Part shown: one piece after another, positions 4,467 to 22,587 of the stretch
Layout: every line of letters begins with the position of its first letter
How positions within the stretch are numbered: position 1 is the first letter of the stretch
NCBI GenBank assembly: GCA_017432365.1
Contig: JAFRJG010000010.1
Span: forward strand, 1 to 47,146
Direction of reading: 5' to 3'
DNA from: Candidatus Saccharimonadota bacterium
GTDB taxonomy: Bacteria; Patescibacteriota; Saccharimonadia; Saccharimonadales; Saccharimonadaceae
Length of the DNA: 47,146 nt
Translations under genes and position numbers: made by a program
The notes under the pieces: generated by a model
What the model saw: the letters and a program-made list of their open reading frames with translations, nothing else
Database searches by the model: none
Told to the model about the DNA's origin: nothing

Positions 4467-4859
4467 CTAGCTTCCGAGCTTCGTCACGACGAAGTTCACA
4501 ATCGCATACGCTAAAATAGAAATCGCTAAACCTACTAACCCGTAAATAATCGTATTTTTCGCCGAAGTTACCTTGCTCTGGTCGCCCGTAGAAATCGTAT
4601 ATTGTACGCCACCATAAATCACCACTACGACCGACAAAATACCGACAACATATAAAATCGTATTGATAATGTTCTTCACTTTATCTTGAAGTTGTAAACT
4701 TCCCGCGCCACTCCCTAAGCCAGTCGCACTCAACCCTCGTCTAACCTGGTCTGTCGCCGGACTCGCATACGCCGCACTCGGCGCCATAACCGCGGAAATT
4801 CCTGCTAAAGCTAACCCCGCCGCCAAAACTGCAGTTTTAACTCTTTCTGATAATTTCAT
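4467..4859 (-). CDS. VirB2/TrbC-like pilin (Mbov_0395 type)
   Basis: 130 aa. A signal peptide ends near AAYA-SP (about residue 32). Two membrane helices (about 65-85 and 105-128) flank the conserved loop YGGVQYTISTGDQSKVTSAK. It is the last of four pilin-like genes on the minus strand but is separated from the previous one by 57 nt holding its own promoter and an AAAGGA SD, so its dose may be set separately. It may be the major pilin; that is a guess from the independent promoter. Confidence 0.82.
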   Translation of the reverse strand: MKLSERVKTAVLAAGLALAGISAVMAPSAAYASPATDQVRRGLSATGLGSGAGSLQLQDKVKNIINTILYVVGILSVVVVIYGGVQYTISTGDQSKVTSAKNTIIYGLVGLAISILAYAIVNFVVTKLGS

Positions 4860-4886
4860 TTACATCCTTTCTTTTACCTTATGTTT

Positions 4887-4915
4887 ATTTTACCAACTTA
4901 AACCGCTCATGTAAA
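4887..4915 (-). promoter_or_regulatory. Promoter of the pilin-like gene at 4859
   Basis: On the minus strand TTTACA (4915-4910), 17 nt, TAAAAT (4892-4887) with an extended TGG. The -35 box abuts the stop codon of the upstream pilin gene. Confidence 0.65.
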
Positions 4916-4916
4916 G

Positions 4917-5336
4917 CTAAAATTTATCGACTACAAACACCACAATCACATACGCTAAAATCGCCAAAGCCAACCCTGCCAACGCATAAATCATTATCAT
5001 CTTCGCCTTCGCTACTTTCCCCGAATTTCCTGTCGAAATCGTCATCTGTAACCCCGCATAAATCATCATCACAACCGATATTACTCCTACCAAATACAAC
5101 AGAACCTTCACCACGTTCTTTATCGGACTCGTTACCGTCCCCGTCTCTTCACAACCCGCTGCCTTTCTCAATTCCTCGTTAATATCCGACCCACATAAAT
5201 CATCTGACGCAATCGACGTCGCCGCCGCTTCCTTCACCATTAACCCCTGTCCGCCAACTTCCAACCCCACTCCCACGAAATTAAGCCCCAACATCAAGCT
5301 CACCGCCAAAATCGCCCCAATCCACCTCTTTTTCAT
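4917..5336 (-). CDS. VirB2/TrbC-like pilin (Mbov_0395 type)
   Basis: 139 aa. N-terminal signal segment (about 8-38), a Cys-containing polar region (LCGSDINEELRKAAGCEE), then two membrane helices around YAGLQMTISTGNSGKVAKAK. Its start overlaps the stop of the preceding gene by ATGA, and an AAGGAG SD lies 8 nt upstream. It is the third gene of the operon read from 6186. Two Cys residues about 10 apart could form a disulfide outside the cytoplasm. Confidence 0.8.
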   Translation of the reverse strand: MKKRWIGAILAVSLMLGLNFVGVGLEVGGQGLMVKEAAATSIASDDLCGSDINEELRKAAGCEETGTVTSPIKNVVKVLLYLVGVISVVMMIYAGLQMTISTGNSGKVAKAKMIMIYALAGLALAILAYVIVVFVVDKF

Positions 5337-5647
5337 TGTCCCATCTCCTTCAACACAAATTGTACCAGCGCAAACGCCGTAATCGCTACCACAAGCCCCA
5401 CAATCGAATAAATCAGCGTATTCCGCGCCTTCGTTACCGCCCCCGCGTCCCCCGCCGAACTCGTCATCTGTAACCCTGAATAAATAATCATTATCACCGC
5501 CGCCACTCCGAGTATCCCAAACACCCAGGACAACACATTCGTCAAAAACGTCCCCGTCCCCCCGCCCGGCAATTTCGGCAATCTCGCCGCCGCGTCATCC
5601 AACTCGTCCCCGAACCGCGTTAAAACTCTTGTCATTTCTAATTTCAT
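5333..5647 (-). CDS. VirB2/TrbC-like pilin-like membrane protein
   Basis: 104 aa. Two membrane helices flank YSGLQMTSSAGDAGAVTKAR, the same core as the neighbouring pilins. Unlike them it has no obvious cleavable signal peptide; it starts MKLEMTRVLTRFGDELDD, a charged N-terminus. It overlaps both neighbours by 4 nt (ATGA), with a GGAGGAGG SD 6 nt before the ATG. It may be a minor or non-cleaved subunit. Its TGA stop is one of only two in the window. Confidence 0.75.
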   Translation of the reverse strand: MKLEMTRVLTRFGDELDDAAARLPKLPGGGTGTFLTNVLSWVFGILGVAAVIMIIYSGLQMTSSAGDAGAVTKARNTLIYSIVGLVVAITAFALVQFVLKEMGQ

Positions 5648-6186
5648 TGGAATCCTCCTCCCGAACTAAATATCCCTAAAATCGTATTCACAATCATGTG
5701 TGCCGAAATCCCTAAAATTAGCCCGACCACCGCCCCAACAATCGTCTTCTTCGCCTTCGCCGCTGCTCCGGCATCTCCGGCACTCAACACATACTGGAAC
5801 CCCCCATAAATAATCATCACTACCGCCAACAACCCCACAATAAAGAACAAATCCGTCAAAATCGTCAAAATAATCGTCCAAATCGTCTTCGTTATCTTAT
5901 CTTTCTCAAAATTACTCCCCGCTACTGTCTGTCGCCCGTTAACCGTCTCACAATCCAAATACGCATACCAACCTTTCAGCCCGAAAAAGTCCGCCGCCGA
6001 CCCTTCACCCCCGTCTCCCCCTGAACAAGCCCCCGTCGTCGCAGTCCCAGTCGTTGCACTCCCTACTCCGCTCGACAATCCCGCACTCCCCGACGGAGTT
6101 GGCGCCGCATACGCCACCCCCGCACTTAACAACCCCGCCCCTATCATCCAAACCCCCAAGATAACCCTAAAAACTCTTTTTCTCAT
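5644..6186 (-). CDS. VirB2/TrbC-like pilin, long form
   Basis: 180 aa, first gene of the minus-strand pilin operon. A signal peptide ends at about AYA-AP (residue 28). A Gly/Ser/Thr-rich region with two Cys (about 30-75) follows, then two membrane helices around YGGFQYVLSAGDAGAAAKAK. It is longer than usual for the family because of the central insert. It is divergent from the VirB6-like gene across 84 bp, so pilins and channel are likely controlled from one intergenic region. Confidence 0.8.
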   Translation of the reverse strand: MRKRVFRVILGVWMIGAGLLSAGVAYAAPTPSGSAGLSSGVGSATTGTATTGACSGGDGGEGSAADFFGLKGWYAYLDCETVNGRQTVAGSNFEKDKITKTIWTIILTILTDLFFIVGLLAVVMIIYGGFQYVLSAGDAGAAAKAKKTIVGAVVGLILGISAHMIVNTILGIFSSGGGFQ

Positions 6187-6192
6187 ACCCTC

Positions 6193-6198
6193 ATTATA
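6193..6198 (-). promoter_or_regulatory. -10 box of the pilin operon (leaderless)
   Basis: On the minus strand TATAAT lies exactly 6 nt before the ATG at 6186, placing the predicted transcription start at the start codon. The -35 is weak. Confidence 0.65.
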
Positions 6199-6224
6199 TC
6201 ATTTTCTTCTTATCTTAAAATACC

Positions 6225-6253
6225 TTGAATTTTTTACTCTTTCATGCTATAAT
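6225..6253 (+). promoter_or_regulatory. Promoter of the VirB6-like gene
   Basis: TTGAAT (6225-6230), 17 nt, TATAAT (6248-6253) preceded by TGC. The GTG start follows after 17 nt. Confidence 0.75.
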
Positions 6254-6270
6254 TAACAGGTTAAATCTAC

Positions 6271-9200
6271 GTGAGTTTTACCGTGTTAGAACGACTAAAA
6301 ACGTCCTTCCGGACTATACTCCTCCTCTTGGGCTTGCTTTTTGCTAGTTCCGCCCTCTCCCTCTCTGTTTCGACCGCCGTTTTCGCCGAACCCGACTCTA
6401 GTCAGTCCCAAGATCAATCTCAAGATCAGTCTCAACAACAGTCCCAAGACCAACAACAATCTCAGGACCAAACCCAATCCACCGACACTACAACCGACAA
6501 CTCAACCGACACTTGTCTTACCGAAGCCGGCTCTCTCGGCTGGGTCGTCTGTCCCTCAACCGGCTTCCTCGCTAAAATTACCGACGGACTCTACGACATC
6601 ATCGAAGAATACCTCGTCGTTAAACCTCTCGGACTCGACTCGAAAAACCCTTTTTATCAAGTTTGGTCTATCTTCCGCGACATCACCAACATCGTCTTCG
6701 TCATCTTCATCTTCGTCGTCCTCTATTCTCAACTCACCGGTATCGGTATTAGCAACTATGGAATTAAAAAGGCGCTCCCGAAAATCATCGTCGCCGCCAT
6801 CATGATTAACCTCTCTTACATTCTCTGCGCCCTCCTCGTTGACCTCTCCAACATCATCGGCGCTTCTCTCCGCGGTATCTTTACTAGTATCGAAACCTCG
6901 ATTACTCCAACCGGCATCCTCGCTTCCGCCTCCTCGAGTTCAGAAATCAACTACTCCTCTCTCGTCGCCGCCATCACCGGCGGTACCCTCATCGCTGGCG
7001 TCACCATCAGCGCCACTGGCGGTCTCGGCGCTCTCTTCCTTGCCCTCGTCCCTATGCTCCTCGGCGCCATCATTGCCATCGTCATCGCTTATATCACCGT
7101 CGCCGCCCGCCAAGCCTTCGTTTATCTCCTCATCATGATTAGCCCCCTCGCCTTCGTCTGCATGTTCCTCCCGAATACAGAAAAATGGTTCGAAACCTGG
7201 AAAAAATCTCTAACAACCATGCTCTTCTTTTACCCCCTCTTCAGCGTCCTCTTCGGCGCCTGCTCTCTTATCGGCTGGGTCATCATCGCCGCCGCTGAAT
7301 CTTCGATGCTCCTTGTCCTCGGTATGGCGGTCAAGGTCATTCCTCTCTTCATGTCCTGGAAACTCCTTAAAATGTCTGGCACTCTCCCCGGTCAAATCTC
7401 CTCCTCCCTCTCGAACTTCGCCAAAATCCCCCTCGGCGCCACCTCTCGTTACTTCGCTTCGCGCGCCGCCTTAAGTCGCGCTCGTTACCTTGGCGGCTCT
7501 CCGAAACCTTACCAAAACTCTCGTTACCTCGCCCAATATCTTGAAGACCGTCGCAACCGTCGCGAAATTGACACACGAAAATATATCGAAGCTGCCAAGC
7601 TCCGTGGTCTCGCCTCTGCCTCCGATTATCATGACGTTTATGGTCGCCTCACTCGTCGCGGGGAAGACCTCTACGCATTAAGTTCCCAGAACGCCCGCTC
7701 CCAGACCCAGGTTGCCGCCGGCGAAAACGAATTTGAGCGTGGTCTCGACGTAAAGCACGCTCGCAGCCATCTCCAAGCTCGCCGTATCAACTCCCTTAAC
7801 ACCGACGCCGTCCGCTCCTGGGACGCCCTTAAATGGGAAAGTGCTAACTCCACCAAAATCAAACATGACAACGCCCAAGGCTACCTCTCCCGCACGAACC
7901 AAGCTCTTAACTCCCACATTAAAAGCTCTGTCCGTGGCGAAGCTCTCTCTGCTGCCGACCGCGCAAGTCTCGGCAATTACCGTCGCATGCTCGATACCAT
8001 GAACGGCGACCATGAAGCCGTCCATTACATCGAAGCTGGCGCCGCAACCGAAGCTCTCGTCCAACAAAAAATCGTCTCCAAACAATTCACCGACTACTTC
8101 TCGACCCTCCCCCCGACTCAACACGTCCACGACCGTCTCAAAGACCTCACCAACTACCGTCATTCTAACGACTATATCGAACCGATTATCTCCGGTATGC
8201 GTGTTTTGAACCAGCGCGGCGACACAGACCTTGTTTACGACATCGTCAAGCGCACAGTCGAAGGTGGTCAGCTCAACCTCGGTACTCACGCTTCCCAATC
8301 TCTCGCCAACTTCTGCATGTTCGAAACTAAGGACTCCGACTTCACGCTTCGTCGCTTCGGTAAATACATCAACCTCGAAACCGCCCGCGTCTTCAACGAT
8401 GGTGTCCCCGACGCCGACCGCCGCCGCAATCCAGTCTTCGACTTTAAGGAATATGTTACCGGTAAATACGTCAACTACGACGAACACGGTAATACCATTA
8501 CTGGAACCTCAAAACTCTCCCTCGCCCCTCTTCTCAAGGGTACTTCAATCGACGGCATCGAACGCACCTCTTTCGCCGTCCTTGACCAAGCTCTCTATGA
8601 CGCCTACGGTACCGACGTTGACGCTAAGCGCGCCACTCGCCGCACTATCTTTAACAACATGCTCTCCGCTCTCATTGGTGGCGGTCTCAAGTTCCCGTCT
8701 GGCTCCGAACAAATCGAAAACGAAGCCACCTGGATTACCGGTCTTAAAAAAGGGAAGAACGGTACCTGGAAAAAGACTTGGCTTGACCCCGATAGTCCGC
8801 TTGCCGGTCTCAACGAATCTGACTTCTTAAAGAACGCTCGTGACTTCCTCGCCGCCCAGACCCCGTCCCAAATCTTCGCTCTTCGCACCGACCTCTTCCT
8901 CCCAATTATCGAACTCCTCGCCGACGCCCACGCCGACTCCTTAACCGGCAATAAAAAGACCGCCTACGATGCTCTCGTCGCCGACGCCGCCGCGAACCCT
9001 AACGATAAAGATAAACAACAAGCCCTTAAAGACGCTCGCGAACAAGGCGCCAAACAAGAGTTCCGCAAACTCCTCCACGAAAAAGGTAAACTCGGTCAAA
9101 TCCTCCTCACCCGCTCTGCCGGTGGCGCCAACAGCGCTAAAGATAAACTCCGCGACTTCCTCGGTCTCGACGACGATGCCTTCGTCAACGAATACCTCGA

Positions 9201-9525
9201 AAAATACCGTCCAGAAAACGACGGCAAACGTAAAAAACGTGGTAAAAAGGGCGGCGCTGACCCGAACGACGCCCACGTTGACACTGGTATTTATGACGAA
9301 TCCGACCGCCAATACTTCCAAGACCTCATCACTGACCTCTACATGAGTAGCCCCGATAGTCCGACGTTCGCCGACGACGCCCTCGACATCATCCGCCACA
9401 ACATCGGTAAATCCTCTTACCTCGCCTCCGCTTTCACCACTCTCCTGAAATCCCACCCAACCGCCTCCAACGCCGACCTCCTCTCCGAACTCTACTCCCT
9501 CCTCTCCGACCCCTCGAACTATTAG
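6271..9525 (+). CDS. VirB6-like polytopic T4SS membrane protein with large soluble C-terminal part
   Basis: 1084 aa, GTG start chosen from promoter spacing. A signal-type segment (about 12-39) is followed by a Ser/Gln/Asp tract (43-70) and then six or so membrane helices (about 135-380), including VRDITN-like and AYITVAARQAFVYLL segments typical of VirB6/TrbL proteins, which form the inner-membrane channel. Residues about 390-1084 are hydrophilic and charged with no family I recognise, and include a Lys-rich stretch KRKKRGKKGG (about 990). The soluble part, about 700 residues, is far larger than in classical VirB6 and may be a secreted or cytoplasmic docking domain. It heads the plus-strand secretion genes. 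Confidence 0.78.
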   Translation: MSFTVLERLKTSFRTILLLLGLLFASSALSLSVSTAVFAEPDSSQSQDQSQDQSQQQSQDQQQSQDQTQSTDTTTDNSTDTCLTEAGSLGWVVCPSTGFLAKITDGLYDIIEEYLVVKPLGLDSKNPFYQVWSIFRDITNIVFVIFIFVVLYSQLTGIGISNYGIKKALPKIIVAAIMINLSYILCALLVDLSNIIGASLRGIFTSIETSITPTGILASASSSSEINYSSLVAAITGGTLIAGVTISATGGLGALFLALVPMLLGAIIAIVIAYITVAARQAFVYLLIMISPLAFVCMFLPNTEKWFETWKKSLTTMLFFYPLFSVLFGACSLIGWVIIAAAESSMLLVLGMAVKVIPLFMSWKLLKMSGTLPGQISSSLSNFAKIPLGATSRYFASRAALSRARYLGGSPKPYQNSRYLAQYLEDRRNRREIDTRKYIEAAKLRGLASASDYHDVYGRLTRRGEDLYALSSQNARSQTQVAAGENEFERGLDVKHARSHLQARRINSLNTDAVRSWDALKWESANSTKIKHDNAQGYLSRTNQALNSHIKSSVRGEALSAADRASLGNYRRMLDTMNGDHEAVHYIEAGAATEALVQQKIVSKQFTDYFSTLPPTQHVHDRLKDLTNYRHSNDYIEPIISGMRVLNQRGDTDLVYDIVKRTVEGGQLNLGTHASQSLANFCMFETKDSDFTLRRFGKYINLETARVFNDGVPDADRRRNPVFDFKEYVTGKYVNYDEHGNTITGTSKLSLAPLLKGTSIDGIERTSFAVLDQALYDAYGTDVDAKRATRRTIFNNMLSALIGGGLKFPSGSEQIENEATWITGLKKGKNGTWKKTWLDPDSPLAGLNESDFLKNARDFLAAQTPSQIFALRTDLFLPIIELLADAHADSLTGNKKTAYDALVADAAANPNDKDKQQALKDAREQGAKQEFRKLLHEKGKLGQILLTRSAGGANSAKDKLRDFLGLDDDAFVNEYLEKYRPENDGKRKKRGKKGGADPNDAHVDTGIYDESDRQYFQDLITDLYMSSPDSPTFADDALDIIRHNIGKSSYLASAFTTLLKSHPTASNADLLSELYSLLSDPSNY
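6397..6480 (+). repeat. In-frame Ser-Gln-Asp low-complexity repeat
   Basis: Codons 43-70 of the VirB6-like gene encode repeated SQDQ and SQQQ units just after the signal segment. At DNA level this is an irregular CAA/CAG-TCC-CAA-GAC repeat that could change length by slippage. Confidence 0.75.
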
Positions 9526-9527
9526 AT

Positions 9528-9557
9528 TTGTCTTAACCTTTTTCAATATGCTATAAT
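9528..9557 (+). promoter_or_regulatory. Promoter of the PrgI-VirB4 operon
   Basis: TTGTCT (9528-9533), 18 nt, TATAAT (9552-9557) with extended TGC; 11 nt to the ATG, and no SD. Confidence 0.72.
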
Positions 9558-9568
9558 ATATAGTACGT

Positions 9569-10417
9569 ATGGCTCAATACAAAGTCCCCCAGGACGTCGA
9601 AGCCGACGATAAACTTCTCGGTCCTCTGAGCTTCCGCCAATTCATCTATCTCGGTATCGTCGCCGCGCTCGTCGCCGTTGGCTGGTTCCTGGCACAAATT
9701 TTCCTCGCTCTCGCGATTATTCCGGTGCCTTTCGCACTCTTCTTTCTGATTCTCGCCCTCCCTCTCCGTAAAGACCAGCCCATGGAAACTTACCTCGCCG
9801 CCCTAATTAGCTTCTACACAAAGCCCAACAAACGCTTCTGGAACCCCGGTCAGCGCGAATCAACCATCACCATCATCGCCCCGAAAGTCGTCGAAAAAAC
9901 CCAAACTAAAAACCTCAGCGGGGAAGAAGCTAACCGTCGCCTCTCCTTCCTCGCCGGACTCGTCGACTCCGAAGGTCAGTCTCTCCGCACTTCCGCCGAA
10001 CCCGGCGACTTCCCGCCCGTCTCTGAATCCCCCGTCCGCTCCGACATCATGGCAGAAGCCGTCGCCACGACCGACCTCTTCGACTCTTACTCCCCTTCCG
10101 TCAACGCCGTCGAAACCGAGGCTGAACGAACTCACGCCGCCGCCGTCGCCCAAATGCGCGCCGCGCTCGACGCTCGCGACCCAGAAAAAGCTGCCAAGTC
10201 TCCTCGCCCCGCCCCAACTCCCGTCTTTAACCCCGCCACTTTGAACACCCCCTCGATTCCGATGACCGCTCCCGAGCCGAAGCCCGCCGTGACTAACCCC
10301 CGCCTAGAAAACCTCTCGAAAAACTCCCCCTTCACCGTCGCCACCGTCGCCAAAGAAGCGTCCCGAAAGTCCAAGTCCGAATCTAACCCTAACGAAGTCT
10401 ATATAAAACTACATTAA
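9569..10417 (+). CDS. PrgI family T4SS protein
   Basis: 282 aa. Residues 1-95 match the PrgI family: YKVPQDVEADDKLLGPLSFRQF, then two adjacent membrane helices (about 28-70) and a conserved MEtYLAALISFY segment. PrgI proteins are small VirB3-like inner-membrane parts of Gram-positive and CPR T4SS that associate with VirB4. The rest (about 110-282) is Pro/Ala-rich and charged, probably disordered, and longer than usual. It starts the operon PrgI - TraC-like - VirB4; the next gene follows 8 nt after its stop. Confidence 0.85.
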   Translation: MAQYKVPQDVEADDKLLGPLSFRQFIYLGIVAALVAVGWFLAQIFLALAIIPVPFALFFLILALPLRKDQPMETYLAALISFYTKPNKRFWNPGQRESTITIIAPKVVEKTQTKNLSGEEANRRLSFLAGLVDSEGQSLRTSAEPGDFPPVSESPVRSDIMAEAVATTDLFDSYSPSVNAVETEAERTHAAAVAQMRAALDARDPEKAAKSPRPAPTPVFNPATLNTPSIPMTAPEPKPAVTNPRLENLSKNSPFTVATVAKEASRKSKSESNPNEVYIKLH

Positions 10418-10425
10418 GGAGCCGC

Positions 10426-11256
10426 ATGAATCCTCAACAATACGGAAACCAACCCCAAGCCCAAGCTCAACCTTACCCGGCTCAGCCCGGCGCCCCCGCC
10501 AACGCCCCAATCACCTCTAACCCCGCTCAAGCTCCCGCCCCCGGCGCCCTCGCTCAAGCGACCCCCGACTCCCCCCTCTCAACTCAAACCACTCTCCTGA
10601 TTTCCGAACTTCGCGACGGCATGGTCATCATGAAAGACGGCTCTTTCCGCGCCGTCATCGCCTGCCAGTCCATCAACTTCGACCTCATGTCCTCAACCGA
10701 ACGCGAAGGTGTCGAATACTCTTATCAAAACTTCTTAAACTCCTTAAACTTCACAACCCAAATCCTCATTCGTTCTCAACGCGTCGACATCTCTCCCTAC
10801 ATCTCCCGGCTCACCGAAGTTCGTCGTAATAACGACAACATGCTCCTCGGAATCCTCATGGACGACTACATTAACTTCATCTCCGTCCTCTCCGAAGAAG
10901 CCAACATTATGGACAAGTCTTTCTATATCATCGTCCCATATTACCCCGACTCCGAACAAGAAAAAATGCTAACCCAAACTAAAAACCTCTTCGCCTCTTT
11001 CCAAAAAACCAAGCCCCAACAAATCACCCGTATCAACCGCGACGTTTACGAAAAAGCCGTCTCAGAAATCCAAAACCGCGTTGAAGTCGTCACTTCTGGT
11101 CTCTTCAGTATCGGTATTCATTCCGTCCGCCTCAACACAAAACAGCTCGCCGAACTTTATTACGACTATAACAACCCCGACACCGCCGTCCATGAACCCC
11201 TTGTTGACTTCACTAAAGTCGCAACCACTTACGTTAAGAAAGGAGGAGACCGCTAA
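10426..11256 (+). CDS. TraC-like N-terminal half of VirB4 (split VirB4)
   Basis: 276 aa. Residues 1-60 are Pro/Gln/Ala-rich. The remainder (LLISELRDGMVIMKDGSF..., then FLNSLNFTTQILIRSQ and FYIIVPYYPD) resembles the N-terminal TraC/CagE domain of VirB4 ATPases, which contacts the membrane parts. There is no Walker motif, so it is not itself an ATPase. Its stop overlaps the start of the ATPase gene (TAATG), and an AAGGAGCC-like SD precedes its own ATG. This two-gene arrangement of VirB4 is common in CPR genomes. Confidence 0.82.
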   Translation: MNPQQYGNQPQAQAQPYPAQPGAPANAPITSNPAQAPAPGALAQATPDSPLSTQTTLLISELRDGMVIMKDGSFRAVIACQSINFDLMSSTEREGVEYSYQNFLNSLNFTTQILIRSQRVDISPYISRLTEVRRNNDNMLLGILMDDYINFISVLSEEANIMDKSFYIIVPYYPDSEQEKMLTQTKNLFASFQKTKPQQITRINRDVYEKAVSEIQNRVEVVTSGLFSIGIHSVRLNTKQLAELYYDYNNPDTAVHEPLVDFTKVATTYVKKGGDR

Positions 11257-13046: not shown

Positions 13047-13062
13047 TTTCTGAGGCTACAAC

Positions 13063-13091: not shown

Positions 13092-13100
13092 ATATAAGTC

Positions 13101-15611
13101 ATGAAGGTTATCAAACGCCTGCTCTTTCTTCTCGTCGCTTGCGCGATTACTTTTGCCTGCCCAACCTCCGCCATGGCGCTAACCAAGCTCCAACAACTCC
13201 TCTTTTCCCAAAACAACATCATTGGCTATGACCCTGACCCGGAATGTCTAACCGACTCCGGAACCTGTTCCATCCCCTCTGGCTCCAGTATTACCTGGAT
13301 TGGCGACTCTTACTCCGTCGAGTCCCTCGATAAGCTCAAGGAAAAGTTCTCCGGCGTTGACCTCGGTCCAGAAAACTCCAACAACAGCTTCTCCCCTTAT
13401 AAATATATCCAATACAGTAAACACTCCGCCTCCCCCTCTTATACCTCTCTAACCGACGCTCTCGGCGGTCCTTCCGGCACTACTCTCCTCGACGAACTTA
13501 TCTCAACCAACTCACTCCGCGATTATCTCGTCTTCGCTCTCGGTACTAACGACCAGCTCGGCTCCGCCGGTACTACCTCCCTCCTTGAGGGAATCGCCAA
13601 TAAAGTTGGCGATAAAAAAGTTGTTCTCGTTACCGCCTATACCGCCGATCATCTCGATTATTCCGCCGACAACGCCGCCAAAAAATCTTTCGCCGATTCC
13701 CATGATAACTTTTACCTCGCCGACTGGGCTGCTGTCGCCAAAGATGAATACTATAAAACCGACAAGTCCCATCCTTCCGACAACGGCGGCTATGACGCTT
13801 GGCTCAGCACTATCTACTCCGCCTTCCCCAGTAACTGCGGTACCACCGCCGACGGCGTAACGACAACGACTTATAACGGCGCCACTCTCGCCTTTCCTAT
13901 CGCCGGCGCAACCAAGGCTATGACTAGTACCGTCTCCACCATCCCCTGCAACCATACTATCGGTTGTCATTACGGCGCTGGCGTCCCCGCCGGTCTCGCC
14001 GCCGCCGCCTTCGACGTCTGTATGACCGGCGAAGGCGCTTCCGACTGTAACGACCAAGCCGTCGTCGCCATGTTAAGCGGCACCATCACTCGCGACATCC
14101 AAACTACCCGTAATGGCGCTGCCTGTAATCACGTCCGTATTAAATCCGACCTCGACGGAACCGTCATCGCCTATATGCACCTCCGCTCTGAAGACCTCGG
14201 TCTTCATGCTGGCGACCATGTTGAAGCTGGTCAGCTTATCGGTCATATCCAAGCCGGCGTCCACCCTTGTAATGACAGTTCAACCGCCCATGTCCATATC
14301 GACAAAAGCGCCGACCCTTCCGCCGATGGCGGACCCAACATCAATGAACGCGACCCCGCTATCACGAAGCTTATGAACGCCGCCTACGAAGCTCTCCCCG
14401 CTAACGCTTCCGGTCTCAACTCCGGCGCCGTCACCACCACTACCGCCAATACCTCCACGCATACCTCCTCCAGTAACAACGGCGTCTCCCTTAACCTTCC
14501 CCAAGAAACCATCGCTCGCCTCGACCAAGAGGGAATCAAAGAAAAAGCCGAACAAAACATGGACATTTACAAACACGGTGAAGAAGTTTCCGGTCTTCCT
14601 TGGCAAGCTTTCGCCGCCATCCATTACCGTGAAGCCGGTATGCGCACCGGCTCCTCCCTGAGTAACGGGGAAGGACTCTACGACCATGTCAATGTCGATG
14701 GTATCCATATCTCCGGAGATAAATATAAAGACGTTGAAGATACTGCTACTCATCTCAAAGAAATGGCAAAGGCTGTTTATGGCGTCGAACTTTCCGCCTC
14801 CTCGTCTCTTGAAGATTGGGGCAACGCCTTCCTCGCGTACAATCGCGGCGTCATGTATAAGGAAAACGGTAAAACTTGGGAAGAATCTCCTTATGTTGCC
14901 GCCGGCATGGACTCTTCTCACCCAATAAACATGAAGTTCCTCTATGCCGACTCCTGCTCCCCCTCCGCCGGTTGCCAAAACTCCGTCGCCGGTCTCACCA
15001 ACCAAAACGTCGGCGCCCTCGCTGTCATGTCTTATCTCGGCGGCTCCCTCTCCTCCTCCGGTATCTCTCGCTGTACCTCGTCTTCCTCCGGTAGTACCGG
15101 CTCTTCGCGTAACCTCTCCGACGCCGAAGCGAAAAAACTCGCCGAATATTATAAAACCGACGCCGCCACCGCCGGCTATAACCTCCCCTCTGACATGGGA
15201 AAATGGAACTGCGTCAGTTTCTCCGCCTGGTTCGTCCAGGTCTTCACTTCTATCGGTAAATACGACCCCGCTACTGGCTGGGGCAACGGAAAAGATACCG
15301 CTTATTATCTCAGTCAAAATAAAAACCTCCCAACCGGCTCCGAGCCTAAGCCATTCGCCGTCTTCTCCGTCACAAGTGGCGTCACCGACTGCGGCGGTTA
15401 TAAATGCGGTCACACCGGCATTGTCGTTGCCGTCAACGGCGACGATATTACAACCGTCGAAGCCGCCTACCCTCAAGTCGGCTATACCGAAGTCGTCCAC
15501 CGCGATAAATCTTACTTCGTCAACGCTCAACACGGCGACGCCTTTACTTATCTCGACTCCGTCCTCGACATGTCTAAGCTAGAAAACCTTATTCAAAAGG
15601 GAACTCTCTAA
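13101..15611 (+). CDS. Secreted multidomain peptidoglycan enzyme: SGNH - M23-like - lysozyme-like - CHAP
   Basis: 836 aa with a signal peptide (about 1-26). Domain 1 (30-245) is an SGNH/GDSL-type hydrolase with IGDSYS (Ser70), GTND (148-151) and D221-x-x-H224. Domain 2 (265-410) looks like an M23/LytM metallopeptidase with His290, Asp305, YMH (His360) and HVH (397-399); the spacing between His290 and Asp305 is longer than the usual HxxxD. Domain 3 (465-650) is lysozyme- or transglycosylase-like, with WQAFAAIHYREAG (Glu511). Domain 4 (675-836) is CHAP-type with Cys704 and His771 (amidase/endopeptidase). Together these could act on sugar O-acetyl groups, cross-links and glycan strands. Ser/Thr linkers separate domains. 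It follows VirB4 directly and is translationally coupled to the next gene. Confidence 0.85.
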   Translation: MKVIKRLLFLLVACAITFACPTSAMALTKLQQLLFSQNNIIGYDPDPECLTDSGTCSIPSGSSITWIGDSYSVESLDKLKEKFSGVDLGPENSNNSFSPYKYIQYSKHSASPSYTSLTDALGGPSGTTLLDELISTNSLRDYLVFALGTNDQLGSAGTTSLLEGIANKVGDKKVVLVTAYTADHLDYSADNAAKKSFADSHDNFYLADWAAVAKDEYYKTDKSHPSDNGGYDAWLSTIYSAFPSNCGTTADGVTTTTYNGATLAFPIAGATKAMTSTVSTIPCNHTIGCHYGAGVPAGLAAAAFDVCMTGEGASDCNDQAVVAMLSGTITRDIQTTRNGAACNHVRIKSDLDGTVIAYMHLRSEDLGLHAGDHVEAGQLIGHIQAGVHPCNDSSTAHVHIDKSADPSADGGPNINERDPAITKLMNAAYEALPANASGLNSGAVTTTTANTSTHTSSSNNGVSLNLPQETIARLDQEGIKEKAEQNMDIYKHGEEVSGLPWQAFAAIHYREAGMRTGSSLSNGEGLYDHVNVDGIHISGDKYKDVEDTATHLKEMAKAVYGVELSASSSLEDWGNAFLAYNRGVMYKENGKTWEESPYVAAGMDSSHPINMKFLYADSCSPSAGCQNSVAGLTNQNVGALAVMSYLGGSLSSSGISRCTSSSSGSTGSSRNLSDAEAKKLAEYYKTDAATAGYNLPSDMGKWNCVSFSAWFVQVFTSIGKYDPATGWGNGKDTAYYLSQNKNLPTGSEPKPFAVFSVTSGVTDCGGYKCGHTGIVVAVNGDDITTVEAAYPQVGYTEVVHRDKSYFVNAQHGDAFTYLDSVLDMSKLENLIQKGTL

Positions 15612-16363
15612 TGAAACCCTCCAATCTTTACCATAAAAGACCTCTTTACCTCCTTGTCTCCGCCGGCTTTTTCTTGATTGTCTTTCTCCTCCTCTCAATT
15701 ATCGCCGTCGCCCATCAAAACCCTTACGGCGCCTCAATCAAAATCTCCGGTCTTAACAACATCTCCGGACTCCCCCGTAACGAAAAAGACCTTCTTGAAT
15801 CCGAACTTTATCGCCTCGTCCAAGCCAATCTCTCTTCTGACTCCTTTGCCATCCCTACCTCCGGCGCTTCCGTTGTAAAAAGTACAATAACTTACTCTAG
15901 CGACAACTCAGTTGACGATAAAAACTACCGCTCCGCCCGCTTCCTCGTCGAACTAAAATCTCTAAAACTTATCTACGTCGCCACCGTCGAATGGACTTCC
16001 TCTCGGAATAAATCCTCCCTCTCCGGTTACCCTGTCGCCTTGACTTGCCCGACTCTCGTCTCGGAAAACTTCTACCCAGAAACCCCCTGTACTGATTTTC
16101 TCTCTACCGACCTTGGCTCCTCTCTCCCCCTCCTCCGCTACCTCCCTTATCGCACAAACGACTTCATCTTAACCCCCGTTGACCTCTCCGCCGAACGACC
16201 CAAGCTCCTCGCCACCCTCCTCATCCACTCTTACCAAACTTCCTCTGAACAAATCGACGAAAAATCCGCCGAATTAAAACAAGCTATCGAAACTTACATT
16301 AAATCCGTCGGCGCCTCTCCTGAAGATTACGACCTCTCTTATAAAATCGAATACGGCGATTAG
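15611..16363 (+). CDS. Single-span membrane protein of the secretion locus, unknown function
   Basis: 250 aa. One membrane helix (about 12-33) anchors an extracytoplasmic domain with two Cys (CPTLVSENFYPETPC). The C-terminal segment, with a helix (about 210-230), SVGASPEDYDLS and a final strand, resembles the C-terminal ends of the proteins at 19806 and 20919. The start overlaps the stop of the large enzyme gene (TAATG), so the two are probably made together. The size and topology recall VirB8-like assembly proteins, but I see no sequence support for that. Confidence 0.7.
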   Translation: MKPSNLYHKRPLYLLVSAGFFLIVFLLLSIIAVAHQNPYGASIKISGLNNISGLPRNEKDLLESELYRLVQANLSSDSFAIPTSGASVVKSTITYSSDNSVDDKNYRSARFLVELKSLKLIYVATVEWTSSRNKSSLSGYPVALTCPTLVSENFYPETPCTDFLSTDLGSSLPLLRYLPYRTNDFILTPVDLSAERPKLLATLLIHSYQTSSEQIDEKSAELKQAIETYIKSVGASPEDYDLSYKIEYGD

Positions 16364-16399
16364 CCCCGCCTCTTCATCTCCGCTTCTCTCGCCCCTCTC

Positions 16400-16428
16400 T
16401 TGCATAAAAACCATAAACTCTTTATAAT
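16400..16428 (+). promoter_or_regulatory. Promoter of the second cell-wall enzyme gene
   Basis: TTGCAT (16400-16405), 17 nt, TATAAT (16423-16428); 8 nt to the ATG, and no SD. Confidence 0.75.
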
Positions 16429-16436
16429 AAACCTAA

Positions 16437-19400
16437 ATGAAAGGTCATCGAGGTTTTCTTAGTCGTTTTTTCCTCCTTTTTCTCGCCTTTTTCCTCTCTC
16501 TCTTCCTCCCCGCCTCTCCCGCCTTCGCCACCTTCTCCGACCTCAGAATCGACTACTTCGCCCAAAACAATATATTTATGTATAGTGACGACGAATGGTG
16601 TAACCCGACCGGCGCCAATATCAATAACATCGCCGGCGGTAAACCTTCCGGCGACCAAGTTACCTGGATTGGTGACTCTTACTCCGTCGGCGCAGTTCAA
16701 CAAATCCAAGACAAGCTCCCCGGCGTCGACCTCGGCCCGGGAGAAATCAACACCTCTTCTTCCTATATTCAAATCTCTAAATGGCCTACTGGCTCCATCG
16801 CTAGTAACCCGACCGGTACCACTCTCGTTAAACAAATCGTCTCAGAAAACAAGCTCCGTCCCTATCTCGTCTTTGCTCTCGGCACCAATAACAATACCGA
16901 CGGTGGCGAAGATTCCGTCCGCTCCATTATGAAATCCGCCGTCGATGAGGTCCTTTCTTTAACCGAATCTTTAAACACTAAAATCATCTTTGTTACCGCC
17001 TACACTACGCAAGCCAACGCCTACGCTAAAGCCAACGAGCTCCTCAAAGAAACCGCCACCGGTAACGACCGCGTTTTTGTCGCCGACTGGGCCGCCGTCG
17101 CTAAAGACGAATATTACTCCGACGGAACACACCCCGCCAACAACGGTGGCTACGACGCCTGGGTCAATTGTATCTATGATGCACTCCCTGGCTCTACTAG
17201 CGGAGCCATCTCTGGTAGTACTAACGAAGAAAAAATCTGGAACTATTTTCTCAGTGCCGGTATCTCTGGCGTCTCCGATAACCCAGCCGTTATCGCCGGC
17301 ATCGTTGGCAATATTGCCGCCGAATCCGATTACGACCCTTTCGTCACCACCAACAGCGGTTCCAATAAAGTCTATGGACTAACTCAAGTCAACGGCTCTT
17401 TCTACCCTGATTTCCTCGAAGCTATGGAAAACGCCGGACTTTCTCAGTACTGGGACAAAACCGAAGTCGACTCCACCGCAACCGATGCTGCCATCAAAAT
17501 CCAGCTCGATTACTTAACTCAAAAGCTCGACCGCTGGACCGGAACCGGAAACGGCGATTGGACTAAAAATTTCGCCTTCTCCACTCATCTTGATACCCCC
17601 ACTAACAAAACCCCCTCGTCCTATGCTGAACTCTTTGCGGTCTCCATCGAAGGTGCCGTTACCTCCGACTCCTCTCAAGCTATTCTCGATGATGGTGTTC
17701 GTCGCCTCGGCACCAATAATTTCTCCTCCGCCTCTGGTGGTGGAGCCTACTACCAAGGCATCGCCATCCGTCGCCAAAACGCCGAAGACCTCTATAAGAA
17801 ATACTCCAACTCCTCCGCTTCTACAACTTCCTCTTCAACAACGACAGCAACCACCACTACCTCTTCAACTTCTAACACTTCTTCCACCTCTTCAAATTCC
17901 TCCTCTCTTTCTCTCAACCTCCCCCAAGAAACCATCACCCAACTCGAAAGCGCCAACGTAAAAGGCCTCGCCGAAAAAAACATGGAACGTTATCGCTACG
18001 GTCAAGAAAAAACCGGCGTTCCTTGGCAAGCTCTCGCCGCTCTTCACTGGCGCGAAGCTGGCATGGGCTCCAATCAAAGTATCTCCAACGGCGAAGAACT
18101 TTATGACCACATCAATGTCGATGGTGTCCATGTCGGCGCCGACCCTAACCAAGACGCCGTCGACGCCGGTAATCACCTCAAAGAACTAGCTAAAACGGTT
18201 TACGATATTTCCAGCGAACCCTCCTCTTGGACTCTCGACGACTGGGGTAACGCTTTCCTCGCCTACAATCGCGGCACCATGTATAAAGCCCGTGGGAACA
18301 CCTGGCAAGAATCACCCTACGTCGCCGCCGGTATGGATAGTGAACACCCGATTGGGATGACCTGGATTTATGCCGATAGCTACACTCCCGACGGCACTCA
18401 AGTTAATAGTGTCTATGGGAAGAAAAACGGTGTCGTTGGTGCTCTCGCCACTATGTCTTACCTCGGCGGTACTTTAACCGGCTCCAGCTCCTCCACTGTC
18501 CTTTGTAGCTCCTCTAGCGGCAACGGTGGTGGTAGTATTATTGAAACTGCTCGCCGTCTCGGCTGGACCGACGACTCCCACTTTAACGAAGTCAAACCTG
18601 AGTTCATTTCCGCCGCCCAAGCCCTCGGCGGAGGTAGTCGTAGCTACTGTAGCGGCAAAAGCTCCGACCTCGACTACTCCCAGGACTGCGGTATTTACGT
18701 CTCCGTCGTTGTTCGTACCTCTGGTGTTGACCCGAATTTTCCCGCAGTCGGCACTTACGAAATGGAACCGTATATGAAAAGTTCTACCCTCTGGCAAGAA
18801 ATCCCCAATCTCGGCAATGAGTCAAATCTCCAACCTGGCGACATCATGGTCTATAACTACAATGGCGGCTCCGGCGGAAATGGACATATCATGATTTATA
18901 ATGGCAACGGCACCGTCTGCCAAGCCTCTCTCTGTAATCAAACCGGTTGGTGTGGACGCGCCATCTATTATGAGTCTCAAGGCGTTAAATACTCCATTTT
19001 CCGCTCTACCGCCAATGCTAATAGTAGTCCACAGGGAACTACTGGCTCCTTTGATGGTGACCTAAAAGCTCTCGAAACCGGCTCAACCCAAGTCGGTGCC
19101 GCCGTCACCGCCCCGGGAAATACTGATGCTTCGAAAGTGGTCGTTGGTGGCTCCTATACTGGCGCTCGCGCCTGGTCTACTATAAAAGTTCCTCTTGCCA
19201 TCGCCGCTATCCAAAAAAACGCCTCAACCGGCTCCGTCACCGAACCTTATGGCACTTCTTGCTCTGGTCCTCTCTCAACTGCTGTCCAAACCGCCATTAC
19301 TCGCTCCGACAACTGCGGTGCTTGGTGGCTCTGGCAAGCTCTCGGCGGTGATAATTCCTCCGCCGCCGCTACCGTCACCGATATCCTTCGCGCCGGAAAA

Positions 19401-19787
19401 GATACCACAACCTCGGTCAACGGTACTGGCGATGGCACAAGTCTTACCTCGGGAAAAACTAACTGGTCTCTCGTCAACCAAGCCCTCTTTGCCGCCAATA
19501 TGCCCCCCATAAATGGCGCTTCAACCGTCATGACCCACATGAAAAACCAATCCGGCGACGACAGTACTCACGGTCTTAACACTTGGAGTTCCAGTATGAG
19601 CAAGGGCGGGTGGGGCTCCGACGCCACTCGTCAATTCGGCATCATTAAACTCTCTTCCGGCAAATGTTCCGCCATCGCCATCGGCACCAACGTCGCCTCT
19701 GACTTTAATGTTTTAGACAAAATCGCTGAAAAAATTAAAGCCCATGAAAGCGAGCTCCCCTCTGGAACTTGTCCCACTGGACTATAA
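16437..19787 (+). CDS. Giant secreted peptidoglycan enzyme: SGNH - phage-tail-lysozyme-like - lysozyme-like - NlpC/P60- or CHAP-like - beta-lactamase-like
   Basis: 1116 aa with a signal peptide (1-31, ending SPAFA). Domain 1 (35-250) is SGNH with IGDSYS (Ser81), GTN (149-151) and D229-x-x-H232, clearly paralogous to domain 1 of the 13101 protein. Domain 2 (262-458) resembles phage tail lysozymes (GIVGNIAAESDYDP, Glu296). Domain 3 (493-680) is paralogous to the lysozyme-like domain of the 13101 protein (WQALAALHWREAG, Glu540). Domain 4 (698-860) is an NlpC/P60- or CHAP-like peptidase (Cys751, His817 in GHIMIY). Domain 5 (870-1110) has class A beta-lactamase/DD-peptidase motifs: S914-T-I-K917, S957-D-N and K1056-G-G. 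A Ser/Thr linker occupies 459-490. It lies in the secretion locus and probably remodels the wall around the channel or attacks host wall. Confidence 0.84.
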   Translation: MKGHRGFLSRFFLLFLAFFLSLFLPASPAFATFSDLRIDYFAQNNIFMYSDDEWCNPTGANINNIAGGKPSGDQVTWIGDSYSVGAVQQIQDKLPGVDLGPGEINTSSSYIQISKWPTGSIASNPTGTTLVKQIVSENKLRPYLVFALGTNNNTDGGEDSVRSIMKSAVDEVLSLTESLNTKIIFVTAYTTQANAYAKANELLKETATGNDRVFVADWAAVAKDEYYSDGTHPANNGGYDAWVNCIYDALPGSTSGAISGSTNEEKIWNYFLSAGISGVSDNPAVIAGIVGNIAAESDYDPFVTTNSGSNKVYGLTQVNGSFYPDFLEAMENAGLSQYWDKTEVDSTATDAAIKIQLDYLTQKLDRWTGTGNGDWTKNFAFSTHLDTPTNKTPSSYAELFAVSIEGAVTSDSSQAILDDGVRRLGTNNFSSASGGGAYYQGIAIRRQNAEDLYKKYSNSSASTTSSSTTTATTTTSSTSNTSSTSSNSSSLSLNLPQETITQLESANVKGLAEKNMERYRYGQEKTGVPWQALAALHWREAGMGSNQSISNGEELYDHINVDGVHVGADPNQDAVDAGNHLKELAKTVYDISSEPSSWTLDDWGNAFLAYNRGTMYKARGNTWQESPYVAAGMDSEHPIGMTWIYADSYTPDGTQVNSVYGKKNGVVGALATMSYLGGTLTGSSSSTVLCSSSSGNGGGSIIETARRLGWTDDSHFNEVKPEFISAAQALGGGSRSYCSGKSSDLDYSQDCGIYVSVVVRTSGVDPNFPAVGTYEMEPYMKSSTLWQEIPNLGNESNLQPGDIMVYNYNGGSGGNGHIMIYNGNGTVCQASLCNQTGWCGRAIYYESQGVKYSIFRSTANANSSPQGTTGSFDGDLKALETGSTQVGAAVTAPGNTDASKVVVGGSYTGARAWSTIKVPLAIAAIQKNASTGSVTEPYGTSCSGPLSTAVQTAITRSDNCGAWWLWQALGGDNSSAAATVTDILRAGKDTTTSVNGTGDGTSLTSGKTNWSLVNQALFAANMPPINGASTVMTHMKNQSGDDSTHGLNTWSSSMSKGGWGSDATRQFGIIKLSSGKCSAIAIGTNVASDFNVLDKIAEKIKAHESELPSGTCPTGL

Positions 19788-19805
19788 AGGATTATAAATA
19801 ACATT

Positions 19806-20465
19806 ATGAACAACCAACCCCCATCTTCTACCACTTACGACCCAATCCGTATCCAATCCCGCTTTCTCTTTCTTTGTGGCGCCACTGCTTTTATTATTCT
19901 CCTCCTTATTGTTCTTTTCTTCTCCACTCGCCATGCCACCTCCTCCCAATTTGAAATTGTCTTTGCCCCCGCTTCTGCTACCGCCACTCTCGACGGCAAA
20001 GTCATTTCCTCCGGTACAGTCACAACCTCTCTTGGTGACCATGAACTTATTGTAGAAAAATTCGGCTTCGCCTCAGAAACCGTCCACTTTTCCACCACCA
20101 GTGGTAAAAACCCCACCGTCTACGCTATCTTAACCTCTAATTCCGACTATACTTCCGACTGGTATACCAAACACCCTTCCGATGCCACCTTAACTGAAGG
20201 TATCATCGGCTGGAAAGCTACCGATACCCAAGACGCCATCGCTGGCTCCCTTCCTGCCTACAAAAAACTCCCTTATACTGGCCCTCATTTTAAACTCTAT
20301 CTTGGTCTCTGCGGCTCAACCGAAACCTGCGTCATTGTCGACTGTCTCACCGCCTATCAAAACGAGGCTCTTGCTTATTTTCGTACTCACCTCGATAGTA
20401 ACCTCGGCGCCTATCGTTTTTCCTTCCTCTATCCAACCATTAACCCGTTCCGCGGAGAAGGCTAA
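19806..20465 (+). CDS. PEGA-domain membrane protein of the secretion locus
   Basis: 219 aa. One membrane helix (about 22-44), then a PEGA-type beta domain (about 48-105; ATATLDGKVISSGTVTTSLG... with VEKFGFASE), then a C-terminal domain with three Cys (LCGSTETCVIVDC) and an ending similar to the proteins at 15611 and 20919. PEGA domains are small extracytoplasmic folds of surface proteins. It follows the giant enzyme by 18 nt, probably in the same operon. Function unknown; a structural or adaptor role next to the wall enzymes is an inference. Confidence 0.72.
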   Translation: MNNQPPSSTTYDPIRIQSRFLFLCGATAFIILLLIVLFFSTRHATSSQFEIVFAPASATATLDGKVISSGTVTTSLGDHELIVEKFGFASETVHFSTTSGKNPTVYAILTSNSDYTSDWYTKHPSDATLTEGIIGWKATDTQDAIAGSLPAYKKLPYTGPHFKLYLGLCGSTETCVIVDCLTAYQNEALAYFRTHLDSNLGAYRFSFLYPTINPFRGEG

Positions 20466-20466
20466 T

Positions 20467-20916
20467 ATGGAATCCCCTCAACCCTCTATTATTTCTTTTA
20501 TCAAACAATACCCCCACTACTTTGCTAGCACAATTCTCCTCTTTCTTCTTATTATTGCCCTCCTTATCCCCTGGAATAAACTTTTCTCTCCCGACCCTAC
20601 CGCTCCCTCCGCTAAAAGCTCTCTTACTAGCTCCTCACTCTCTACCGCCCTCAATTCCGAACGCGACTCAATCGAAACTACTTTTCTCTCTAAATACAGC
20701 TTTGTTGCCGAGTCATTCACTATTAAGGATATCGTCCTTTTTAGAGATAACATCGCCGGACTCACTCTTACCTACGGTTTAACCACCTATCGCACTCTCC
20801 TTCAAAAACAAGATGATTCTTGGACTATACTCGCCCCTCCGGAAATCGTCCTTTCCTACGCCGACTTCCCCGACATCGACCAATCTATTATTAAAGACCT
20901 CAACAACTTGGAGTAA
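20467..20916 (+). CDS. Small single-span membrane protein, unknown function
   Basis: 149 aa with the ATG at 20467, one base after the stop of the preceding gene. An upstream in-frame ATG (20302) would overlap that gene by 164 bp and is unlikely. There is one membrane helix (about 19-38), a Ser-rich linker and an extracytoplasmic domain (about 65-149) ending WTILAPPEIVLSYADFPDID. No family recognised. The gene sits tightly between two PEGA-type genes, so it probably belongs to the same envelope complex. Confidence 0.65.
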   Translation: MESPQPSIISFIKQYPHYFASTILLFLLIIALLIPWNKLFSPDPTAPSAKSSLTSSSLSTALNSERDSIETTFLSKYSFVAESFTIKDIVLFRDNIAGLTLTYGLTTYRTLLQKQDDSWTILAPPEIVLSYADFPDIDQSIIKDLNNLE

Positions 20917-20918
20917 CT

Positions 20919-21566
20919 ATGCGCAATAAAATCATCTCCCATCCCATCATCTTCACTACCGTCATCGCCGTTATCATCCTCCTCATTCCGCTCGTTTCTA
21001 CTATCCTCTCTAACACCAAATCCTCTACTGTCATCTTCCATCTCGCCCCCTCTACCGCCACAGTCGAATTCAAACATCAACGTTACTCCTCAAACTCTCC
21101 TATCAACCTTACTCCCGGTACCTACACCGCCACCGTTTCCGCCCCTGGCTTCGAATCGAAAGAAATCTCCTTTACTCTCACTAAAAACTCCAACGTAACC
21201 GTTCGCACCTTTCTTGTCTCCCCCGATTCCGGTTTTCTCCCCTATGAATCCAATTACGACGCACTTTATACTCTCCGAGAAATTGCCGCCTCTGACTCCG
21301 CCCCTTCCGACCTGACCGAATTCCTCACAAAGTATGATCAAAAACTGACCATCGTCGACCGTCTTCCCGTAACTCATAACCTTGATGTTATTTCCGACCC
21401 AGGCAGCTTTTATATATTCAACGGCTCCAACTTACCCCAGTGCCAACGTATCTTCTGTCTAGAAATTGGTGCTGGTACAAATTCCGGTTTTACCGACGCA
21501 GAGGACTTGATTAAAAGTTGGGGCTACAACCCTTCCGACTATCAAATCATCAAATCCCAAAAATAG
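20919..21566 (+). CDS. PEGA-domain membrane protein, paralogue of the 19806 protein
   Basis: 215 aa. One membrane helix (about 10-32), a PEGA-type domain (about 38-95; ATVEFKHQRYSSNSPINLTPG and VSAPGFESKEI), a middle helix-rich part and a C-terminal part with CQRIFC and DAEDLIKSWGYNPSDYQI. This matches the layout of the 19806 protein. It starts 2 nt after the preceding stop, and is the last gene of the secretion locus, ending 3 nt from the convergent recF stop with no visible terminator. Confidence 0.72.
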   Translation: MRNKIISHPIIFTTVIAVIILLIPLVSTILSNTKSSTVIFHLAPSTATVEFKHQRYSSNSPINLTPGTYTATVSAPGFESKEISFTLTKNSNVTVRTFLVSPDSGFLPYESNYDALYTLREIAASDSAPSDLTEFLTKYDQKLTIVDRLPVTHNLDVISDPGSFYIFNGSNLPQCQRIFCLEIGAGTNSGFTDAEDLIKSWGYNPSDYQIIKSQK

Positions 21567-22583: not shown

Positions 22584-22587
22584 ACGC

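Follow-up and report, generated by a model that had tools for sequence, protein, structure and literature searches.

The stretch of DNA under study, referred to below as the window, comprises the 47,146 nucleotides of contig JAFRJG010000010.1 from a Saccharibacteria genome (GenBank assembly GCA_017432365.1), and it contains one block of genes for a type IV secretion system (T4SS), two large secreted peptidoglycan-cutting enzymes and four single-span membrane proteins. We rate it about an even call that this block represents a chromosomal, relaxase-less T4SS of the MPF_FATA type whose VirB1-like secreted enzymes are swappable, dock by means of a tag and are positioned by a partner protein. New here are the observations that lysozyme, glucosaminidase, CHAP, NlpC, C39, amidase, M23 and SGNH domains are exchanged over a constant VirB4, that the secreted wall enzymes have a common N-terminal tag, and that a membrane-anchored partner is usually encoded beside the enzyme. 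The original prediction of an incompletely described system holds for the enzymes and the single-span proteins, but not for the machine: an orthologous cluster is essential (PMC10633639) and the system has been described across the phylum (PMC12102498).

The window corresponds to contig 19 in a genome of 677 kb, 96% complete, whose closest named relatives are metagenome-assembled genomes of Saccharibacteria, many of them from ruminant gut. All data derive from such assemblies with mechanically called open reading frames, loci from sister species are non-independent samples, and genome-wide statements refer to profile searches across all contigs. From left to right, the block consists first of four minus-strand T4SS pilins. 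On the plus strand come VirB6-like, PrgI, TrsD-like and VirB4, then wall enzyme 1 with one single-span protein after it, and wall enzyme 2 with three more. It stops a few bases short of recF, with dnaN and dnaA beyond.

Two multidomain wall enzymes

Wall enzyme 1 (13101..15611, plus strand, 836 amino acids) has Pfam matches to CHAP and M23, and with iterated hidden Markov models (HMMs) its layout is a signal peptide, the tag, SGNH (residues 60-242), M23 (312-401), a lysozyme-like domain (475-609) and CHAP (701-820). Wall enzyme 2 (16437..19787, plus strand, 1116 amino acids) matches PF18013 at 2.4e-9 and, weakly, NlpC and Beta-lactamase2. Its front half comprises signal peptide, tag, SGNH (71-250) and phage-lysozyme (258-443), its rear half a lysozyme-like domain (503-639), an NlpC-like domain (695-857) and a beta-lactamase-like serine hydrolase (871-1110). 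Note that the domain borders come from iterated HMMs built from both enzymes and their relatives, and that the SGNH and lysozyme-like assignments reflect homology to those relatives with no direct Pfam match; the SGNH family takes in proteins from loci L041 and L046 that match Lipase_GDSL_2 at 1.3e-9 and 2.1e-11. The nine domains predicted for the two enzymes were recovered as four plus five, and the expected catalytic motifs are seen in the sequence, namely GDSY..GTN..HP for SGNH, HVHID for M23, REAG for the lysozyme-like domains, C..H for CHAP and NlpC, and STIK..SDN..KGG for the beta-lactamase-like part. A phmmer search of both enzymes against PDB sequences returned no match.

Both enzymes are wall hydrolases of a T4SS cluster with several predicted catalytic domains, as is PrgK of pCF10, a DELTA-class VirB1 protein. 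PrgK has three extracellular domains (LytM-muramidase-CHAP), and an architecture with several domains is usual for the VirB1 enzymes of Gram-positive systems (PMC12857230). The claim that the block holds more than the usual single VirB1 enzyme is sound with respect to the unusually large number of wall-cutting domains, but not to multidomain architecture as such. The likeness to PrgK extends to several wall-cutting domains per secreted enzyme, among them LytM/M23, muramidase and CHAP; unlike PrgK, the window enzymes add SGNH, phage-lysozyme, NlpC and beta-lactamase-like parts, occur as two copies, carry an N-terminal signal peptide and tag, and are paired with single-span proteins. Compared with the known Patescibacteria T4SS, the species of the window stands out by having one four-domain and one five-domain enzyme.

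Exchange of catalytic domains beside virB4

In 18 of 19 loci from other families a secreted wall enzyme is encoded downstream of virB4 (16 in the main tally, plus L052 with CHAP and L053 with VanY), usually behind a membrane-associated protein of about 900 residues. The catalytic domains in this slot include CHAP, M23, amidase 2 and 3, GH3, glucosaminidase, SLT, C39, NlpC/endolysin-like, VanY and SGNH; at L042 the slot protein has 460 residues and no recognised domain. Within the genus of the window, the slot holds glucosaminidase-CHAP, phage-lysozyme-NlpC, lysozyme-NlpC or five-domain enzymes between neighbouring species. The window VirB4 is about 62-91% identical to other VirB4 proteins of the order, and mostly 85-91% within the genus.

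An ordinary explanation would be that these are VirB1-type assembly enzymes that open the cell's own wall only and have no target in the host, their variability coming from drift and the shuffling of domains. The age and conservation of the slot beside virB4 agree with this, as does the multidomain build of Gram-positive VirB1 proteins such as PrgK (PMC12857230), but the presence of nine domains in two enzymes and of several enzymes of about 1000 residues in some genomes does not, and a chemistry that changes at 85-91% VirB4 identity is hard to square with a presumably stable own wall. We consider this explanation unlikely. Fast swapping over a near-constant VirB4 would better fit an external, host-specific wall, and because the chemistry is swapped over a constant machine we infer that the host wall is a target of the enzymes.

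In several families the protein of about 900 residues that follows virB4 ends in a VanY/D-Ala-D-Ala carboxypeptidase-like domain, at L048:11164-14385 and also at L037, L039, L046 and L049, so that it may cut wall as well. It is not found at the window locus; a relative lies on contig C17 of the same genome (G000), hence there is no loss. On that contig (L197:5962-10759, plus strand) a secreted protein of 600 residues, in which a cutinase-like GSGS motif region was identified by eye, precedes this 992-residue relative, and a similar pair occurs in genome G028 (L200).

A common N-terminal tag

Directly after the signal peptide, and whichever domains come next, the enzymes carry the motif ALSxxxLxxYxxNNIxFYxPxG (alignment A1). 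In wall enzyme 1 the tag reads ALTKLQQLLFSQNNIIGYDPDPEC (13167..13247, plus strand; E 3.7e-10 with profile A1 in the whole genome), in wall enzyme 2 FSDLRIDYFAQNNIFMYSDDEWC (16524..16601, plus strand; E 5.5e-10 in the same search). When profile A1 was run against the whole genome up to E=10, these two enzymes were the only matches; as both are part of the alignment the E-values are flattered, which leaves the absence of a third match unaffected. Among 116 congeneric genomes, 99 have a tag match at E<=0.01, nearly all in open reading frames of 260-1435 residues. Of 100 genomes sampled across the order only 6 have any match, and 3 of these belong to the genus of the window. Since the tag is rare elsewhere in the order, chance matches should be few. 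We rejected the tag as an order-wide motif: in leave-one-family-out searches it was clear in 3 of 9 families, weak in 4 and not found in 2.

The combination of chemically diverse wall-degrading proteins with one conserved segment in common, and an adjacent gene for a membrane-associated partner, recalls the X-Tfe/X-Tfi proteins of Xanthomonas (PMC6536674, PMC10933484), which are likewise encoded in part at the T4SS locus and in part at scattered sites. However, the window tag follows a signal peptide and so opens the mature protein, versus the C-terminal XVIPCD in Xanthomonas. Furthermore, the window partners have a common domain and are not strictly enzyme-specific, and translocation or inhibition would be putative.

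Single-span partner proteins

All four of the single-span extracytoplasmic proteins that had been predicted are present, each on the plus strand. The first (15611..16363) has an S1N head according to HMM families, and is the only S1N member in its own genome. The second (19806..20465) has a PEGA head, with a sub-threshold PEGA match and membership in HMM family PEG. The third (20467..20916) carries an S3 domain (HMM family S3); its start was set at the ATG just past the upstream stop, while the listed open reading frame opens at TTG 20302. The fourth (20919..21566) combines a PEGA head with the common C-terminal domain (PEGA and CarboxypepD_reg matches; HMM families PEG and LPI). Where an enzyme has a next gene, this gene encodes a single-span protein of 120-420 residues in 79 of 92 cases, compared to 47 of 700 for background genes; transmembrane calls were based on hydropathy, and a few of the counted enzymes are other proteins with one catalytic domain. 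Three kinds of partner occur, with an S1N head, a PEGA head (S3 being present or absent) or an Ig-like head, and they have a common C-terminal domain (hhalign probabilities 96.6, 89.4 and 96.7).

The kind of head varies with enzyme type. In the discovery set, CHAP-terminated enzymes were accompanied by S1N in 23 of 24 cases (the other was unlabelled) and never by PEGA, while enzymes with NlpC but no CHAP were accompanied by PEGA in 31 cases and by S1N in none. Fisher's test gives 9e-16 if relatedness is ignored, and 8e-6 for the 12 versus 8 distinct architectures counted by hand. As this rule was first noticed on the discovery loci, a hold-out on other genomes was fixed beforehand, restricted to tag-positive matches. 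It yielded 15 S1N and no PEGA partners for CHAP enzymes, and 11 PEGA and 5 S1N partners for NlpC enzymes (Fisher 7e-5), the remaining enzymes being unlabelled or lacking a next gene. In the genus, 38 of 39 CHAP enzymes had the S1N head and none had PEGA. A strict one-to-one pairing of CHAP with S1N and NlpC with PEGA was rejected on account of the five exceptions among the 16 labelled hold-out NlpC enzymes, and the C-terminal domains of these exceptions did not rescue it. The pairing is therefore a strong bias and no code. In other families CHAP enzymes carry an Ig-like (Big_5-looking) head instead.

Distances between NlpC domains and their PEGA partners are correlated (Mantel r 0.74, and 0.74 in the partial test given VirB4), those between CHAP and S1N less so (0.25-0.36), whereas between enzymes and VirB4 there is next to no correlation of distances (0.06-0.12). 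Enzyme and partner thus form modules whose movement is largely independent of the machine.

These data also speak to a serious rival, namely that enzyme and partner are effector-immunity modules, with the enzymes acting as wall-degrading weapons or as effectors of host entry, and the single-span proteins providing membrane-tethered immunity that guards the producer's own wall. The partner gene directly follows the enzyme, the head tracks the peptidase and not the glycosidase (r 0.86 for peptidase and partner versus 0.47 for PLYZ2 and partner, in the same 16), and island enzymes with both NlpC and CHAP sit among both S1N and PEGA proteins. In Xanthomonas, moreover, X-Tfi proteins keep the producer from being damaged by its own lysozyme-like T4SS effector (PMC10933484). 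Nevertheless, the five hold-out NlpC enzymes with S1N in place of PEGA do not fit, S1N also follows C39, M23/VanY-type and Amidase_2 enzymes, the CHAP enzymes of other families have the Ig-like head, some enzymes have no partner, and the C-terminal domain common to all partners suggests a common structural role. We thus judge immunity to be somewhat improbable, and prefer a function of the partner as tether or recruiter, because the partners have one common domain, span enzyme types in the hold-out and show an Ig-like head elsewhere.

Predicted folds of the partners

The AlphaFold2 model of the S1N partner (mean predicted local distance difference test score, pLDDT, 84) consists of a transmembrane helix, an alpha/beta head and a beta-beta-alpha-beta C-terminal domain. 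In L111, a homologue of the PEGA-S3 type (pLDDT 92) in which the S3 domain was modelled, the head is transthyretin-like (5aq0, Z 6.3, root-mean-square deviation 2.3 over 66 residues). The S3 domain aligns weakly to cystatin and NTF2-like folds, including YpeB, an NTF2-like conjugation protein (3ub1, Z 4.5) and, with a Z of 4.2 that counts for immunity, the entry of a Tae3-Tai3 complex. Foldseek/VIA searches with both partner models gave nothing above common arrangements, and no VirB8 or inhibitor family stood out.

VirB8 is known to recruit VirB1 in other T4SS. A further rival reading is that the single-span proteins are diverged VirB8 core subunits and not enzyme partners. Their single transmembrane span with small alpha/beta extracytoplasmic domains would suit this, as would the NTF2-like and cystatin alignments of S3, the weak Foldseek match of TraH of pIP501 to 15611-16363 (E 0.57) and the lack of a recognised VirB8 in Southlakia (PMC12102498). 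On the other hand, the single-span proteins are multicopy, vary with enzyme type and travel with enzyme islands, and they are absent at enzyme-less loci, where a core subunit would be expected at every virB4 locus. All fold scores lie below the level that would mean more than a common arrangement, so that the fold does not establish either VirB8 or immunity. We hold an identity as VirB8 to be quite improbable.

The T4SS core

Four open reading frames on the minus strand, 4467..4859 (PF18895 2e-9), 4917..5336 (4e-9), 5333..5647 (1.2e-12) and 5644..6186 (2e-12), exceed the PF18895 cut-off for VirB2-like T4SS pilins, in accordance with the predicted pilin array. A fifth pilin-like gene lies outside the block at 403..771 on the plus strand (PF18895 2.9e-13). 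The plus-strand core begins with a polytopic membrane protein of 1084 residues (6271..9525), for which the label VirB6-like is backed by its position, conserved in L035-L074, but only by a sub-threshold TrbL/VirB6 match (E 0.008). PrgI, a VirB3-like protein, is confirmed at 9569..10417 (PF12666 3e-13). It is followed by a TrsD-like remote homologue of the N-terminal part of VirB4 (10426..11256, NF041427 7.9e-7) and by the VirB4 ATPase itself (11256..13046, NF045971 388 bits). What had been taken for a split VirB4 is indeed two genes, yet no broken one: it corresponds to the TrsD and VirB4 pair of MPF_FATA systems, an arrangement kept across the order. VirB4 was found in 56 of 60 relatives. Note that a locus titled Nomurabacteria (L110), probably mislabelled, has a VirB4 84% identical to the Saccharibacteria protein of the window.

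Conserved synteny across Saccharibacteria, proposed as a check, was found: the succession pilins-virB6-prgI-trsD-virB4 recurs in loci of about 20 other families, far above chance, and the full order kept in about 20 families is comF-hsp20-pilins-virB6-prgI-trsD-virB4-[enzymes]-recF-dnaN-dnaA. With TrsD and PrgI/VirB3 near VirB4, five PF18895 pilins, no PF03432 relaxase and recF-dnaN-dnaA adjacent, the machine can be assigned, by gene content and position, to the known relaxase-less MPF_FATA-type T4SS of Patescibacteria. Quinonero-Coronel et al. 2025 (PMC12102498) describe VirB4, TrsD, PrgI, VirB6 and VirB2-like pilin arrays across Patescibacteria, in MPF_FATA-related systems that mostly have no relaxase and are often near dnaA, with peptidase and lysozyme homologues just downstream of virB4 that are essential in Southlakia epibionticum. 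Wang et al. 2023 (PMC10633639) report the Southlakia cluster SEML1_0006-0019 as essential for epibiotic growth, with neither a coupling protein nor a relaxase recognised in it. The Patescibacteria systems are treated as newcomers to the T4SS superfamily in a 2025 review (PMC12857230). The window resembles these systems in its VirB4, TrsD, PrgI, candidate VirB6-like protein and tandem VirB2-like pilins, its lack of a PF03432 relaxase, its proximity to dnaA and the peptidase and lysozyme genes downstream of virB4; the tag, the swapping of catalytic domains and the partner families are not described in the accessible parts of PMC12102498 and PMC10633639.

As noted at the outset, no relaxase, VirD4 or VirB11 is encoded within the block. 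Genome-wide there is no match to PF03432, the sole relaxase family searched, and three PF00437 ATPases, all outside the block, are read as type IV pilus ATPases. PF02534 gave no match at the threshold of the genome search, but L003 (genome contig 10, 322-3117), a protein of 931 residues, exceeds the PF10412, PF12696 and PF02534 cut-offs when scanned as a protein, so that a VirD4/TrwB-like ATPase is encoded away from the block. L003 may be a coupling protein or an exapted motor. Of the VirD4 and relaxase genes that, if found elsewhere, were to count against the original prediction, the former has a candidate counterpart, while no PF03432 relaxase was detected. A PADLOC search returned no matches.

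That the block serves conjugation of a mobile element was already disfavoured and strikes us as very improbable. VirB4, PrgI and TrsD are homologous to conjugation proteins and the TrwB/VirD4-like ATPase would be at hand, but the missing PF03432 relaxase, the position beside dnaA fixed across the order and the wide occurrence of VirB4 argue against it.

Proposed mode of action

In the preferred reading of a relaxase-less T4SS with swappable, tag-docked enzymes, VirB4, TrsD, PrgI and VirB6 would together make up the motor and channel in the membrane, with a pilus built of the VirB2-like pilins. Judging from their signal peptides, the enzymes would be exported by Sec, whereupon the mature N-terminal tag may recruit them to the machine or keep them there. 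The adjacent single-span partner, its C-terminal domain common and its head varying with enzyme type, would hold or position the enzyme at the membrane, much as VirB8 does with VirB1. At the contact site the enzymes would cut peptidoglycan, that of the episymbiont first and probably that of the host as well, and the pilus or channel would reach the host. Of the proposal that the apparatus crosses both walls and does not serve plasmid transfer, a non-conjugative T4SS with many wall-cutting domains stands, while its action on the host wall is a deduction. More tentatively, and in our view possible but not probable, the Sec-exported tagged cutters could be an interchangeable cartridge of the essential T4SS, in which every cutter has a dedicated membrane protein to control it or to guard against it, and which species exchange so as to suit the peptidoglycan of their host.

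Several points weigh against this picture. All evidence on the organism of the window is computational. The strict tag profile is limited to the genus and a few relatives, other families having a degenerate form only, no fold match identifies the partners as VirB8-like, and a partner is missing immediately downstream of about five LYZ-NlpC enzymes. Moreover, 25 of the 76 genus loci with enough sequence have no enzyme downstream of virB4. The expected co-conservation of wall enzymes with VirB4 consequently holds in part: the enzymes lie beside virB4 in 51 of 76 loci, and in 6 of 6 genomes checked among the others (G001, G003, G005, G022, G024, G034) tagged enzymes of about 300-1140 residues are encoded at other sites, most of which are islands that also encode single-span proteins. 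In G024 it is the T4SS core that lies elsewhere on the contig, the enzyme block still being beside recF. Given enzyme-less virB4 loci and distant islands, the tie to the T4SS is one of slot and tag and not of obligate linkage.

As a separate observation, islands away from virB4 (L185, L187, L188, L191) encode proteins of about 830-1050 residues that combine CHAP with as many as three NlpC-like domains, and have single-span genes nearby.

The T4SS of Saccharibacteria is essential. The tagged cutters, a small set in each genome, and their linked partners offer a short, concrete list of candidates for the breach of a host wall by these parasites and for the determinants of host range. Should the enzymes act on the host, their exchange over an otherwise constant machine would allow host specificity to be read from sequence.

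Neighbouring genes

The replication-origin genes recF, dnaN and dnaA flank the block at 21570..25532 on the minus strand; DnaN and DnaA are supported by Pfam, recF (21570-22583, minus strand) by SMC_N/AAA matches and position. At locus L047 (2778-3451, minus strand), two small, toxin-antitoxin-like genes lie between the enzyme partner and recF. On the other side of the window block, between hsp20 and the pilin array, a 646-residue membrane protein with a sulfatase domain (2489-4429, plus strand) is possibly lipoteichoic-acid-synthase-like. Further along, near glycosyltransferase genes at about 31977-37612, the window encodes a ChW-repeat protein (30675-31991, plus strand) and a LytR_CpsA_Psr protein with a weak CD1107-like match (27821-29671, minus strand).

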